A stretch of 64,000 nucleotides of DNA, taken from Gammaproteobacteria bacterium. GTDB taxonomy: Bacteria; Pseudomonadota; Gammaproteobacteria; Eutrophobiales; Eutrophobiaceae. The stretch is taken from contig JAJFKL010000018.1 of the NCBI GenBank assembly GCA_021773235.1, forward strand, positions 62,001-126,000, given 5' to 3'. The position numbers and the translations under genes are program-made. The notes beneath the pieces are model-generated. The model was given only the letters and a program-made list of their open reading frames with translations, was not told where the DNA came from and made no database searches. Shown piece after piece: positions 8,186 to 61,914 of this stretch (within the stretch, counting starts at the first letter, position 1; each line of letters starts with the position of its first letter).

Positions 8186-9622
8186 TTAAAAGTCAGCTCT
8201 CACAGTCAGACTAATTCTATCTTCATCAAAGTTATCTCGGTCAAAACGTTTACTATATTCAACATTACCGCTAATACCATTTTTATTAAAATACCTGATG
8301 CCAGTCGTTAACAGAATATCATCGTTATCGTTAGTCGGTTGAGGGCCTGTTGTTACTGATATCTTTCTAAATGAAATATCCCTTTGATAAGACAAATTCA
8401 GAAATGGCTCATAATTGTCAAAACTGTATGCCACATCGCCAGCAATGCTCGCTGTCGTTACCTTCGTTCTACTTTCACTAACAACAGTACCATTGCTCTC
8501 TGTAAAACCATCTATAGAGCTACTGGCATACGACCAGCCAATACGGCTACCTAATATCCAGTTATTGTAAAAAGCTATGCCGTTCAGATTAAGAGCACTA
8601 AACCACCGATCGGCATGTGGCGTACTCGTAACCTGAGTTGTTGTTCCCGTTACGGTACGAAATTGATCGTAATCGACTCTTGAATAGCCCACATTAAAAT
8701 CAAGACTAAACGAATCCGTCAATAATGCGCCAAAATAGGGGGCAACCGTGAAGCTATCTGTGTCCTGATTACCACCATTAAAAGTAGTATCGATATCACC
8801 CTTGTCATAACCAAAAGCGACACCTAAAATCGAATCGCCCCAAAAGCTAAAATCAATCCCTCCAAGAAAACTATGATTACTGCCATCAAAGGCAGTACTA
8901 CTTAGATCATTCTCATAATCCGTATAACTGTAATTTCCCCAGACACCGTAAGCAATGGCAGAACCATCACCAGCATTTAGACCCGTTGTCCCACCTATTG
9001 TAAATTGATTGTCTGTAACACGAGGTCCTCCGGAAAACCCTATACCAGCCAAGGCGCCACCAATATGGTTGCTGATACCTGAAATCGTACCTTGCATCTG
9101 AATATTGAATAAGACGGCATCGGTTACTGAGCTACTGGGAGTAACATCAGGTGTAATAACCGTGCTGCTATTTCGTGATATGGAGCCATTGCCTGAATAA
9201 ATACAGCCATCACCTCCGGAATTCATACCAGAAAAACTAAATGAGATTGTATTTCCACTTAACGTACCATTTACAACTGTTGTGTCTGTACCACCACCGT
9301 CGGTATGAGTAACCGTAAATGAGATTGTACTTTCAGAGAGAAAGGTGCCCGTTCCTAAATCTATATCAGTCGTTCCATCGCTTTCGGTAACTGTAACAGA
9401 GACATCAAAATGCCCTGCGCTCTGATTACTGAAGACAACACTTAATTGATCAGTAAATGAGCCATCTAATGAAGCCGGTGTACAACTGCTATCAACACCT
9501 GTGGCACTACCAGCCCAGGTTCCAACAATATCCGGATATGTCGCATGAACTAATGGGCTTACAATAGAGGCACCCAAAAATAATGTGATTAATACAAAAA
9601 CTCTTTGACCATGAAAAATCAT
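8186..9622 (-). CDS. Autotransporter-type outer-membrane beta-barrel protein
   Basis: 478 aa; signal peptide, Ser/Thr/Gly-rich passenger, C-terminal beta-strand pattern ending RISLTVRADF. Confidence 0.75.
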   Translation of the reverse strand: MIFHGQRVFVLITLFLGASIVSPLVHATYPDIVGTWAGSATGVDSSCTPASLDGSFTDQLSVVFSNQSAGHFDVSVTVTESDGTTDIDLGTGTFLSESTISFTVTHTDGGGTDTTVVNGTLSGNTISFSFSGMNSGGDGCIYSGNGSISRNSSTVITPDVTPSSSVTDAVLFNIQMQGTISGISNHIGGALAGIGFSGGPRVTDNQFTIGGTTGLNAGDGSAIAYGVWGNYSYTDYENDLSSTAFDGSNHSFLGGIDFSFWGDSILGVAFGYDKGDIDTTFNGGNQDTDSFTVAPYFGALLTDSFSLDFNVGYSRVDYDQFRTVTGTTTQVTSTPHADRWFSALNLNGIAFYNNWILGSRIGWSYASSSIDGFTESNGTVVSESRTKVTTASIAGDVAYSFDNYEPFLNLSYQRDISFRKISVTTGPQPTNDNDDILLTTGIRYFNKNGISGNVEYSKRFDRDNFDEDRISLTVRADF

Positions 9623-26171: not shown

Positions 26172-26894
26172 TCAATACATATGTTGACCACCATTGATGC
26201 TTAGAGTGGAACCGGTAATAAAACCGGAGTCATCACTTGCCAGAAAACAAACACCTTCAGCGATCTCTTCTGGTTTACCCAGTCTTTTAACCGGAATTTT
26301 TGCGATAATTTTCTCTAGTACATTTTCAGGAACAGCACGCACCATTTCTGTGTCGATATATCCTGGTGCGATCGCATTAACTGTTATTCCCTTGCCCGCA
26401 CCCTCTTGTGCTAATGCCTTGGTAAAACCATGAATGCCTGATTTGGCGGCGGCATAGTTAACCTGACCATACTGACCTGCTTGGCCGTTGATAGAACCAA
26501 TATTGATGATCCTGCCAAAACCTGTTTCGCGCATATGTTCAATAACCAATCGGCTCAAATTAAAACACGAACTAAGATTTGTTCTAATAACATCTTCCCA
26601 TTGATCGACTTCCATTCTATTGATGGTTGTATCTCGTGTGATGCCGGCATTGTTAACCAAGACCTCTACCGGTCCAAGCTCTGCTGTTATTTTTTTAATC
26701 CCTGCTTCACAAGCAGCGAAATCACCAACATCAAATTTATAGGTGGCAATTCCTGTTTGTTTTGTAAATTCCTCTGCCTTTTGGTCGTTACCAGCATAAT
26801 TTGCTGCAACTGTATAACCTCTATCTTTTAATGCAATACTGATCGCTTCACCAATACCACGTGATCCACCTGTTACTAATGCAACTCTTGCCAT
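26172..26894 (-). CDS. phbB: Acetoacetyl-CoA reductase
   Basis: 240 aa SDR; ALVTGGSRGIGEAI, NNAGITRDTTINRM, YAAAKSGIHGFTKALAQEGA. Confidence 0.88.
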   Translation of the reverse strand: MARVALVTGGSRGIGEAISIALKDRGYTVAANYAGNDQKAEEFTKQTGIATYKFDVGDFAACEAGIKKITAELGPVEVLVNNAGITRDTTINRMEVDQWEDVIRTNLSSCFNLSRLVIEHMRETGFGRIINIGSINGQAGQYGQVNYAAAKSGIHGFTKALAQEGAGKGITVNAIAPGYIDTEMVRAVPENVLEKIIAKIPVKRLGKPEEIAEGVCFLASDDSGFITGSTLSINGGQHMY

Positions 26895-56860: not shown

Positions 56861-57475
56861 ATGGATAATACGATAACACTAGATAAGCATCATGATGCGA
56901 AAGACCTGTCCGATCGTATTGCCTATGCTTTCACTAAATTCCTTCGATTTTTTGCCGATACATTTTTCGCAAAGCGATACGGACATCGAGCAGTCGTTTT
57001 AGAAACAGTTGCCGCAGTTCCAGGCATGGTTGCTGGCTCATTACGGCATCTACGCGCACTACGCCGCATGGAAAGCGATCAGGGATGGATACGTATCCTA
57101 CTCGAAGAAGCAGAAAACGAACGCATGCACTTAATGACATTCGTAAATATTGCACAACCATCAGTGTTTGAACGCGTACTGATATTGCTTGCACAAGGTA
57201 TCTTCTACAATTTGTTCTTTCTGGTTTATATATGCTCAGCAAAAACAGCACATCGTATAGTCGGTTATTTTGAAGAAGAAGCGGTATACAGCTATACCGA
57301 GTATTTAGCTGGCATAGATGATGGAACTCATGAGAATGTACCCGCTCCTGAAATCGCGATTGAATATTGGAACTTACCAGCAGATGCGCGTTTACGTGAA
57401 GTTGTTATTGCCGTGAGAGATGATGAAGCACATCACCGTGATGTAAATCATGATTTTGCTAACAAACTTGCTTGA
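56861..57475 (+). CDS. aox: Alternative oxidase (cyanide-insensitive quinol oxidase)
   Basis: 204 aa; [62 protein letters not shown]: all diiron ligand motifs. Confidence 0.95.
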
Positions 57476-57537: not shown

Positions 57538-57945
57538 ATGAGTGACTTCGAAACAGTGAAAGAGAGTTTTGAACGATGTGGCACTTCCGATGGGTTTTAC
57601 GATACGTTTTATGAACTATTTCTATCAAAGTCAGATGAGATCGCGCCATTTTTTTCTGGAACTGATTTTAAAAAACAGAAAAAATTATTAAAGGCAACGA
57701 TTACCACCATGATACGTTTCCCACTCGATCACAGAGGGACACAAACAACCTTAGCCATGGTCGCAAAAACTCACAGCCCTAATAATTACAATAGCTACAA
57801 TATCAAACCTGAACTACACGCACTATGGCTAGATAGCCTTTGCGAAACGGTTAAAAAACATGACCCTGATATTACTGTAGAACTTGAAGATAAATGGAGG
57901 AATTACATACAAGAAGCAATTAATACTATTCTTTCGAAATATTAG
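57538..57945 (+). CDS. Single-domain globin
   Basis: 135 aa; FYDTFYELFLSKSDEIAPFFSGTDFKKQKKLLKATITTMI, HSPNNYNI-like proximal region. Confidence 0.85.
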   Translation: MSDFETVKESFERCGTSDGFYDTFYELFLSKSDEIAPFFSGTDFKKQKKLLKATITTMIRFPLDHRGTQTTLAMVAKTHSPNNYNSYNIKPELHALWLDSLCETVKKHDPDITVELEDKWRNYIQEAINTILSKY

Positions 57946-58165: not shown

Positions 58166-58179
58166 TTGATCTTGATCAA
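58166..58179. promoter_or_regulatory. FNR/ANR-type box TTGATCTTGATCAA
   Basis: Perfect TTGAT-N4-ATCAA; TAATTT at 58201 at class-II spacing; DUF3149 ORF starts 58243. Confidence 0.75.
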
Positions 58180-58242
58180 TAATATATTTTAACAGTGTTT
58201 TAATTTGTACATAGTTACCTGGAAAATACTGGAGATTAGAGA

Positions 58243-58374
58243 ATGGAACTATGGTTGAACCTACTGTTCGGCAACCCTATTGGGTTGATGTCGATGATTG
58301 TCGTGTTTGTAACCTTTGTGATTATCAGTTATTTCTTATATATGCTTTATGATAAGTCAAAACCTAAGTCCTGA
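58243..58374 (+). CDS. DUF3149-type single-TM micro-protein, 43 aa
   Basis: MELWLNLLFGNPIGLMSMIVVFVTFVIISYFLYMLYDKSKPKS*; below ORF-track length cutoff. Confidence 0.85.
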   Translation: MELWLNLLFGNPIGLMSMIVVFVTFVIISYFLYMLYDKSKPKS

Positions 58375-58554
58375 TTTAGGTGGGCATTGATAATTTACAA
58401 TAATTACCGGAATGTAGATCTATTCTTACTCCGTCAATAATATTGGTCGTCCCTACCCATAATTGACTGGGTAGCTTTCCAACTTATATACAAAAAATGA
58501 TTACCTTATTGAGTAAGAATCTTTACTTAATTAATTTTAATAAAGGAAACATCA

Positions 58555-59226
58555 ATGATAGTCGAGAGAACTAAACTGGTTGCCGAGAGAGATGAGGTTC
58601 GTTCAAAAATAATGGTCATGGGTCAGGACTCGGTCAATCTATTAAACCAGTTCATGGAATCATTGGTTCATCTTGATATCGAACGTGCGGATAATATTAC
58701 AAATGGAGATGAACATTTTAATCATCTTTATCAGAGCATCCATGATGAATGCTTAATCATGATCGCCCGCCAACAACCAGTCGCCTCCGATTTGAGAGAA
58801 GTTATATCTGATCTTCAGATAGCAATCGAACTTGAACGCATTGCAGATCACATTGCTTCAGTAGCCCAGATCGTACATACCTTGTCTGTGGCAGCCATTC
58901 CTCCAGTCTGGGATGAGATCATACACATGGTCAGACATACTTCAGACATGATGAGTAATATGCTGATCGCTTACCATGAAATGGACGTGGAAAAAGCAGA
59001 AGCAATCGCTACTAGCGACGATGATATAGACAGAATGGACCAACAAATAGTCACTGAAATTATTGATTACATGAAATCAAACACAGCAGCTATCGAAAAC
59101 GGCACCCATCTCATTTGGCTAGTACATGATATAGAACGTATCGCGGATCGTGTCACTAATATCGGCGAACAGATTGTCTTTAATGCCTCCGGGAAAATAG
59201 CCGATTGGAATACCTCTAAAGCTTAA
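58555..59226 (+). CDS. phoU: Phosphate transport system regulator PhoU
   Basis: 223 aa; RQQPVASDLREVISDLQIAIELERIADHIASVA, LVHDIERIADRVTNIGEQIVF. Confidence 0.93.
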   Translation: MIVERTKLVAERDEVRSKIMVMGQDSVNLLNQFMESLVHLDIERADNITNGDEHFNHLYQSIHDECLIMIARQQPVASDLREVISDLQIAIELERIADHIASVAQIVHTLSVAAIPPVWDEIIHMVRHTSDMMSNMLIAYHEMDVEKAEAIATSDDDIDRMDQQIVTEIIDYMKSNTAAIENGTHLIWLVHDIERIADRVTNIGEQIVFNASGKIADWNTSKA

Positions 59227-59256
59227 GCAACGAAAGTGAGGTCTAATATCACTTAC

Positions 59257-60084
59257 TCATAATCCTTGTCTATGTGGTACTAGCTCAGCTAATACCTCTT
59301 CGATAACACGTACAACTTCTTCCTGTTTCAAGTAATCGAGTGCATCAGCATGAGGCGATGCAAACTGACCTGCATCATTATCAAAATATTTTCCAGAAGC
59401 AGTAGAGAATTCATCTGATAGTGCTGCACGGATGATTATATCTGCACCAATATTGATATCTTTACCATCCACACCAAAGACTTCTTTCACCATCTTACTG
59501 GCAAGCAAGGAACCCGGATTAATTGCAACAATCATCGGGCCACGATCATTAAGCAAAAGTGCTATATGCCGAGACCACATCGTTAACGCCAGCTTACTTT
59601 GTGCATAAGCGCTCATCTCATCCGACAATTTAACTTGCCCTGCTAATGCTTTTAGATCAATTGGGGACTGAGCAGCAGACGATAGATTAATTACCCTGCC
59701 AAAGTTCCCAAGCAACGGTAGTAATCGTTGTGTTAATAAGTACGGTGCAAATGTATTCACAACAAACCTTAAATCCAGTCCTTCTTTCGTTGAGGGTTCT
59801 GCAACCTTGAAGACACCCGCATTATTAATCAGCACATCAAGTTTATCGTGTTTGTTTATGATGGTCTTCGCCATCGCCTTGACATCAACCAGACGAGAGA
59901 AGTCAGCCATGAAGGTTTCAACATGGCCGTTGCCCGATAATTGAGAAAGTATTTTTGCTGTTTTGGATAACTTTTCAGCATTTCGCCCGTGCAGTAAAAC
60001 ATGATGCCCCTGTTCGACTAATTTTTTAGCGGTTACTAGACCAATGCCATCAGTTGAACCCGTTATTAATATAATTTTTTTAAT
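59257..60084 (-). CDS. SDR oxidoreductase with putative ATT start
   Basis: Frame extends upstream of the 217-aa ORF: (ATT)KKIILITGSTDGIGLVTAKKLVEQGHHVLLHGRNAEKLSKTAKILSQLSGNGHVETFMADFSRL...; NNAG, YAQSKLA motifs. Confidence 0.8.
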   Translation of the reverse strand: MKKIILITGSTDGIGLVTAKKLVEQGHHVLLHGRNAEKLSKTAKILSQLSGNGHVETFMADFSRLVDVKAMAKTIINKHDKLDVLINNAGVFKVAEPSTKEGLDLRFVVNTFAPYLLTQRLLPLLGNFGRVINLSSAAQSPIDLKALAGQVKLSDEMSAYAQSKLALTMWSRHIALLLNDRGPMIVAINPGSLLASKMVKEVFGVDGKDINIGADIIIRAALSDEFSTASGKYFDNDAGQFASPHADALDYLKQEEVVRVIEEVLAELVPHRQGL

Positions 60085-60263
60085 AAACTTATTTCCTTTT
60101 GCTGTGGACTGTTAAAAGGGTTCGGATATCTTTAATTTAATTAAAAATAAACTGATACGCAATAATAGAAAGGTCAGCCCCTCATATTTATTTTTATACC
60201 ATAAAAACAATAGGCACTGTCTTTCGTTATCATACGTTTTTTAACGTTTTGGACATACAAGCC

Positions 60264-60277
60264 TTGATCTAGATCAA
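60264..60277. promoter_or_regulatory. FNR/ANR-type box TTGATCTAGATCAA
   Basis: Perfect palindrome; TATTAT at 60299-60304 at class-II spacing; USP gene starts 60380. Confidence 0.8.
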
Positions 60278-60379
60278 AGCATCTCTAGAACATTGTTCTA
60301 TTATTTAATTGAAGGGTTGATGGCAATGCTTATATAGCAAACCCGGTTATTTAGAAACAATTTTATTGCAGAGTAAAAT

Positions 60380-61285
60380 ATGAATAAAAAAATACTTGTT
60401 GCGGTACATTCTGGATTTACTGACGCACCAGCTATTCAACGTGCTCTCGAATTAGCCAGTACTACTGATGTGGACATTTTGCTCTATAGCGCTGTATATG
60501 ATGAATATATTCCAAATATAAGCGTCGTTACAGAGCAAATTCAAAAATTGCATCAAAAGATGCTTGATTCAGAAATCGCAAAACTTAAAGAAATCAAAAA
60601 TCACTTGGTACAGACTGCAAAATCAGTAGAAATTGAGGCGCAATGGGAACCCTCCGTAACCGATGGCATCACTAAAGCGGCTGAAAAGTTTAATGCTGAC
60701 TTTATTTTAGTTTCGAGTACCCGCCATTCATCACTGTCTCGACTATTTTTGTCCAACACAGATTGGGAAATATTGCGTCATGTCTATATGCCGATACTCT
60801 TCGCCCATCAGCATGAGAAAAAATCTTATAAAAATGTGGTCATTGCTGTCGAATCTGCCTATAACAATGACGATACAATAAAATTAGAAGATCAGATGAT
60901 CGCTATAGGCAAATGGTTCTGCGAAACATTTAATGGTGAGCTACATATAGCACATGCTCACCCATCTCAGCATACAGTAGCAAGTATGGATTATATGATA
61001 CCTGCTGATTTAAATGAAAAATTGAAACAGCAACATAAAGATTCCTTATATCAATTAAGCTCCAGACATAATATCAATGAGCAAAACACTCATTTTCTTG
61101 AAGATTATCCACGCATAGCAATTCCAAAGCTTGCCAATGACATAGATGCCGATTTAGTTATCATGGGACTAGTCTCTCGTAGTTTTATAGACCGGTTTTT
61201 AATCGGTTCTACGACAGAGTATCTTTTAGACCATTTGGCATGTGATGTTTTAACAGTTCATGCAAACTACAAAGCTGGCACATAA
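60380..61285 (+). CDS. Tandem universal stress protein (UspE-like)
   Basis: 301 aa; two Usp halves, VSSTRHSSLSRLFLSNTDWEILRHVYMPILFAH and MGLVSRSFIDRFLIGSTTEYLLDHLACDVLTV. Confidence 0.92.
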   Translation: MNKKILVAVHSGFTDAPAIQRALELASTTDVDILLYSAVYDEYIPNISVVTEQIQKLHQKMLDSEIAKLKEIKNHLVQTAKSVEIEAQWEPSVTDGITKAAEKFNADFILVSSTRHSSLSRLFLSNTDWEILRHVYMPILFAHQHEKKSYKNVVIAVESAYNNDDTIKLEDQMIAIGKWFCETFNGELHIAHAHPSQHTVASMDYMIPADLNEKLKQQHKDSLYQLSSRHNINEQNTHFLEDYPRIAIPKLANDIDADLVIMGLVSRSFIDRFLIGSTTEYLLDHLACDVLTVHANYKAGT

Positions 61286-61346
61286 AATTGAAGAGGCGTG
61301 CCCTTTTCATTTTATCTCTAAAAATGTTTTTTTGACCCTTTCGATC

Positions 61347-61808
61347 TTACCGAAATGTATCATGACAACCATTACAGGTTACATTTAAACGTGTGTATGC
61401 CGGTTCAATAAGCTCGTAATTATCACCGTCAAGAACATTTTTAAAATTCTGTGTTTCTGCATAGAGGTTATTAGCCAAAGACCTAAATCCTATTTGTTTA
61501 TATTTTTCTAACTTAGTATCAGGTGGTTCTTTTGTCATTGCCTCTGCAGTTAACAGCAGGTCATCTACAGTTTTTATTAGTACAGACATCTGACCTTTTT
61601 CAATTATATTTTTTTCTATATCTGCATGCTTACTGCCTTGCAGAGCTGAATTTAAATTCAGCATAATGCCACGTAATTTTTCACTGGGAATGGCGTGAGG
61701 AGCTCGTGAGCGCGCTTCTGGTTCTGTAGTTGTTTTCATTTTGCCTTCATCGCTCATACACGTGCCGGCATTCAGATAAAATATCAATAGAATCAGCATC
61801 TTTTTCAT
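61347..61808 (-). CDS. Class II-like cytochrome c (C-terminal CNGCH)
   Basis: 153 aa; signal peptide, VTCNGCHDTFR at C-terminus. Confidence 0.85.
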   Translation of the reverse strand: MKKMLILLIFYLNAGTCMSDEGKMKTTTEPEARSRAPHAIPSEKLRGIMLNLNSALQGSKHADIEKNIIEKGQMSVLIKTVDDLLLTAEAMTKEPPDTKLEKYKQIGFRSLANNLYAETQNFKNVLDGDNYELIEPAYTRLNVTCNGCHDTFR

Positions 61809-61900
61809 AACAAATGATCCTCGTTATTTTTAATTAGATTTACCTAAGTATGTTTCATCGCATTTGATGATAATTATAGTTCTTGGTATGAATGCGAGAA

Positions 61901-61914
61901 TTGATCTAAATCAA
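61901..61914. promoter_or_regulatory. FNR/ANR-type box TTGATCTAAATCAA
   Basis: Perfect TTGAT-N4-ATCAA; perfect TATAAT at 61873-61878 (minus) at class-II spacing; cytochrome gene starts 61808. Confidence 0.82.

Follow-up and report, generated by a model that had tools for sequence, protein, structure and literature searches.

Three exact copies of the FNR/ANR palindrome TTGAT-N4-ATCAA lie within 3.8 kb of a 64,000-nucleotide stretch of gammaproteobacterial DNA (the window), and they raise two questions: whether they mark promoters of an oxygen-responsive regulon, and what the DUF3149 micro-protein encoded behind the first of them would do. The first-pass annotation had described each box as intergenic, pointing at a gene and followed by a -10-like hexamer placed as in a class-II FNR promoter, and had proposed a compact oxygen-limitation regulon next to alternative oxidase (AOX) and globin genes. 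The positions were confirmed, all three boxes are intergenic, and each faces a gene, encoding DUF3149, a tandem universal stress protein (USP) and a cytochrome c', respectively (Table 1). Counted from the middle of the box to where the hexamer begins, toward the nearest gene, the spacings have class-II geometry, that at the cytochrome c' gene being the ideal one; the hexamer in front of DUF3149 is a weak -10. The three boxes belong to three separate transcription units. A fourth exact box is located 192 bp upstream of an SDR/3-oxoacyl-ACP reductase-like gene (26172-26894, minus strand).

Table 1. Boxes, -10-like hexamers and genes in the window, by position
Feature	Position	Strand	Remarks
Fourth FNR box TTGATTTAAATCAA	27087..27100	.	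exact, intergenic; not in the first-pass annotation
Alternative oxidase (AOX)	56861..57475	+	PF01786 E=5e-84
Globin	57538..57945	+	related to Pseudomonas aeruginosa PA3967 (PDB 1TU9), E=6e-20
FNR box TTGATCTTGATCAA	58166..58179	.	exact, 77 bp 5' of DUF3149 start codon
-10-like hexamer TAATTT	58201..58206	+	28.5 bp from centre of box 58166
DUF3149 micro-protein, 43 aa	58243..58374	+	PF11346 E=6e-13
PhoU-domain protein	58555..59226	+	3' of DUF3149; same order in G003
FNR box TTGATCTAGATCAA	60264..60277	.	exact, upstream of tandem USP gene
-10-like hexamer TATTAT	60299..60304	+	28.5 bp from centre of box 60264
Tandem universal stress protein, 301 aa	60380..61285	+	PF00582 E=1e-35
Cytochrome c'-like secreted protein, 153 aa	61347..61808	-	C-terminal CNGCH haem motif; PF01322 26.4 bits
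-10-like hexamer TATAAT	61873..61878	-	29.5 bp from centre of box 61901
FNR box TTGATCTAAATCAA (minus strand TTGATTTAGATCAA)	61901..61914	.	exact, upstream of cytochrome c' gene

The genome, an assembly of 50 contigs that totals 2.87 Mb and is 81% complete, was examined through pattern matches and the regions around them. The pattern search returned 40 exact boxes, whereas about 17 would be expected genome-wide under a first-order Markov model of the window, and control patterns yielded 3 matches (reversed pattern), 7 (the palindrome TTAGT-N4-ACTAA) and 13 (its reverse). Intergenic boxes account for 24 of the 40, a minimum given by a simple longest-ORF caller, against about 15% non-coding DNA in the window (P ~1.5e-10). 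Boxes within ORFs, 16 in all, are about as frequent as background predicts, which places the whole excess in intergenic DNA; the similar density in coding DNA that the first-pass annotation had named as contrary evidence was not seen. In 32 box-to-gene directions, -10-like hexamers occur 10 times at 28.5 and 29.5 bp, where about 1.6 are expected (P ~7e-6), with an additional peak at 26.5 bp from the box centre. A chance grouping of AT-rich palindromes might be suspected from the modest window-wide excess at two mismatches (113 against 79), but this is contradicted by the enrichment of exact matches, their intergenic bias, the promoter spacing and the cross-genus conservation described below, and its probability is negligible. 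The cluster itself is mildly unusual: random scatter of 40 boxes would give about 0.05 clusters with three boxes in 3.8 kb. Comparable clusters are found on contigs C34 and C43 of the same genome, and by itself such a cluster would be ordinary.

The presence of an fnr/anr gene, which the first-pass annotation had left to be checked, was established. Two FNR proteins (P0001 and P0002) are encoded, with a CX2CX5C motif, a fourth cysteine and an ETVSR recognition helix. The one on C34 exceeds the NCBIfam FNR cut-off, and the second cysteine-bearing paralogue, on C18 (L033, 3237-3962), has a TTGATCTAGATCAA box 166 bp upstream. A third member of the CRP/FNR family is CRP-like and lacks the cluster cysteines. 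Further box-bearing genes include hemN, adenosylcobalamin-dependent nrdJ, napF, the copper ATPase gene ccoI, UbiM, acs, two PAS chemoreceptors and a second USP. To judge from their sequences, the hemN, nrdJ, napF, ccoI and USP targets form an ordinary FNR/ANR regulon; these targets, the boxes, the class-II promoters and the cysteine-bearing FNR are shared with the regulon of other gammaproteobacteria, from which the present one differs in including DUF3149 and in having a box in front of the gene for the second FNR paralogue as well. It is also conceivable that the boxes serve mainly a different member of the CRP/FNR family whose consensus is identical (a DNR/NO sensor, or CRP in Shewanella), the signal then being NO or carbon state instead of oxygen. 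The half-site is common to the whole family and several DUF3149 carriers have many CRP/FNR paralogues, but here there are only the two cysteine-bearing FNR proteins and the CRP-like one without those cysteines, and hemN, nrdJ and ccoI are classic FNR/ANR genes, which makes such a regulator rather unlikely.

Other boxes of this genome have varied surroundings. A 20-kb part of contig C43 (L047/L048) holds six exact boxes; nearby are hemN, nrdJ, UbiM and genes for a protein resembling hemerythrin, a DUF3095 protein and an FHA/cyclase protein. The exact box at C11:181336 (L029) lies 59 bp before the gene of a macrodomain protein that resembles the DarG antitoxin N-terminus (under the NCBIfam cut-off) and adjoins a DUF2147 protein gene. 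At C23:1941 (L034), an exact box separates the gene for polyphosphate kinase 1 from that for a TIGR00153/PhoU-like protein, and a box is likewise present at a further PhoU-like gene (L023); in the window, phoU comes after DUF3149.

Regarding the window genes other than DUF3149, the USP box is kept 104-138 bp 5' of the orthologue in G003, G006 and G011 (1 mismatch). A USP paralogue on C36 (L042) is 84% identical to the window copy on C10 (L025), and the two share the box together with some 27 bp of the promoter, as a gene that was duplicated along with its promoter. The cytochrome c'-like protein, whose CNGCH motif was read in the translation, scores just under the 26.5-bit PF01322 cut-off. Its box is conserved in G006, where the USP and cytochrome c' genes are divergent neighbours with a box each. 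The boxes, the class-II spacing and the FNR homologues thus uphold part of the proposed compact regulon, but its extension to AOX and globin was overstated, because AOX has no upstream box with up to one mismatch and neither the globin gene nor phoU has a box of its own; AOX and globin are mere positional neighbours. The globin gives a Pfam globin match of only E=0.003.

The most notable point had been missed in the first-pass annotation: the box accompanies DUF3149 across most of its family, and the gene is linked to the cbb3 oxidase. A pattern scan of named genomes identified 80 DUF3149 loci, mostly in Shewanella, plus Ferrimonas, Motilimonas, Parashewanella and several uncultured Gammaproteobacteria; the degenerate pattern was based on a closer sequence set, the first alignment being too diverse. 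A box with at most one mismatch is found within 250 bp upstream in 74 of these loci, the commonest distance being exactly 75 bp before the start codon, with 71-90 bp in most of the 74. The 250 bp downstream contain such a box in 2/80 loci, and 19 permutations of the half-site reach at most 5/80. Two samples provided 60 further loci, 41 with a box of up to one mismatch and 10 with two mismatches, in the same place (for 7 of the 60, box counts are from the original sample scans). The box is the main invariant block 5' of the ORF in an eight-genus alignment, and box and spacing in G003 are as in this genome. The same oxygen-shortage switch is found at DUF3149 in dozens of bacterial genera. Loci without their own box include G169 and G281, inside the cco operon, and G345, beside fnr and ccoN; copies inside the operon have no box of their own, as would be expected if the ccoN promoter drives them. 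A copy in G001 (L055) still has its boxes, but its C-terminus is abnormal and suggests a frameshift or decay.

The window ORF matches PF11346 at 48.6 bits (Pfam gathering score 23.2), and the family has a conserved N-terminal LFGN..GL.S motif. The AlphaFold2 model (mean pLDDT 87) yields just a kinked single helix, composed of a helix at residues 2-9, a GNP kink, one long transmembrane (TM) helix at 12-39 and a basic tail. The pN/pS ratio is 0.08 against G003 and 0.04-0.16 across comparisons (pooled pS 0.58, pN 0.11), by which the ORF is under strong purifying selection and evolves as a protein. This bears on whether the transcript might be mainly a regulatory small RNA with an incidental ORF, like SicX (PA1414) of Pseudomonas aeruginosa, which acts as an sRNA and whose original annotation was that of a small ORF (PMC10247376). 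Both transcripts are short and associated with low oxygen, that of SicX being Anr-dependent and that of DUF3149 predicted to be monocistronic and FNR-driven. Nevertheless, selection at DUF3149 acts on the amino-acid sequence, and it is the protein that is conserved and not the nucleotides outside box and ORF, so that an sRNA function is very improbable. Profile and single-sequence searches of the PDB with DUF3149 gave no meaningful match and no convincing oxidase subunit, and an NCBIfam scan of 23 members gave sub-cut-off noise only, one weak CydP match included. A literature search for DUF3149, PF11346 and IPR021494, with subscription literature outside its scope, found no report.

The cbb3 oxidases are high-affinity enzymes that serve respiration at very low oxygen in many environmental and host-associated bacteria. 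Among 369 genomes of the class, ccoN is over the cut-off in 38 of the 39 with DUF3149 and in 152 of the 330 others (Fisher P=3e-11 with kinship ignored, an optimistic value because the genomes are related), and the sole exception is a 55% complete assembly. The bd oxidase was rejected as a partner: cydA occurs in only 19/39 carriers and is absent from this genome assembly. In eight genomes DUF3149 is in or beside the cco cluster, directly after ccoP in six of them: between ccoP and ccoG in G169, G281, G159 and G182, and by position also in G388 and G293. In G166 it comes after ccoH and has a box of its own, and in G345 it lies upstream of ccoN, between fnr and ccoN. These cases represent five or six independent lineages, since G182, G388 and G293 are of one genus. 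Most copies are not near cco, and those standing alone have no conserved neighbours. In samples of 369 genomes from the class, 399 from the phylum and 58 relatives, the gene has a patchy distribution; DUF3149 occurs in 5/58 relatives from the host's own family although ccoN is common there, and it is thus accessory and not essential to cbb3.

In this genome DUF3149, on C10, is not linked to ccoNOQP. On contig C34 (L173, 9718-19873), fnr is grouped with a sulfite-exporter-like gene, ccoS, ccoI and ccoNOQP-94aa-ccoG-ccoH; boxes lie at 9342 and 13959. The ccoP-ccoG slot is occupied by a 94-aa protein unrelated to DUF3149 and with no Pfam match. A similar ORF of 82-96 aa is found in the cco clusters of G281 and G166. 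Like DUF3149, CcoQ, CcoS and CcoH are small membrane proteins encoded with ccoNOP, as DUF3149 is in some genomes, but each is separately present in the same operons (here ccoQ, 57 aa, ccoS, 58 aa, and ccoH), DUF3149 being an extra gene. A further parallel is CcoM, a 36-aa protein of the cbb3 oxidase from Pseudomonas stutzeri (chain N of PDB 5DJQ; described via PMC8267372 and PMC10433244). Both are single-TM micro-proteins associated with cbb3 and low oxygen, by genomic context in the case of DUF3149, which differs in its LFGN..GL.S motif and in lying inside the cco operon in some genomes. DUF3149 was rejected as a CcoM homologue, with an hhalign probability of 4% against 5DJQ chain N and no detectable homology.

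These observations suggest the following mechanism. At low oxygen, FNR, an ANR-type oxygen sensor, would bind the boxes at about -41.5 and activate three separate promoters, those of DUF3149, the tandem USP and cytochrome c'. DUF3149 would be a conserved core gene of the FNR regulon, made together with the cbb3 oxidase, on which it may act as an accessory subunit or as an assembly/stability factor, much as CcoM does in P. stutzeri. In this genome it would be supplied in trans from C10, with fnr, ccoSI and ccoNOQP-94aa-ccoGH on C34 under their own boxes. We give this account as a whole a probability of about 0.6; the sequence data strongly support its regulatory part, whereas a physical link with the oxidase is inferred from genomic context. 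The co-occurrence with cbb3 could be indirect, because both depend on a low-oxygen lifestyle and on FNR. DUF3149 may then be a true regulon member that serves another low-oxygen membrane system, such as the bc1 complex, cytochrome c maturation, copper delivery or the quinone pool: many membrane enzymes are under FNR, cbb3, bc1 and c-type cytochromes go together, and in most genomes the gene stands alone without conserved neighbours. Against this possibility, which we consider unlikely, speak the insertion of the gene directly after ccoP and before ccoG in several families and the presence of bd oxidase in only about half of the carriers.

The occurrence of the same switch in dozens of genera, together with the position of the gene sometimes within the cbb3 operon, indicates that DUF3149 is probably an overlooked accessory part of the cbb3 oxidase. 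It is rather likely an unrecognised, widespread micro-subunit, or a dedicated assembly/stability factor. Across Gammaproteobacteria (in the GTDB sense) it would also rank among the best-conserved genes of the FNR/ANR regulon; most species would carry it in trans, behind an FNR promoter of its own, and others within their cco operons. Small subunits of cbb3 oxidases readily escape notice. An uncharacterised family that occurs in Shewanella and numerous further genera would thereby gain a regulator, an expression condition and a candidate partner, all of them testable in genetically tractable Shewanella.
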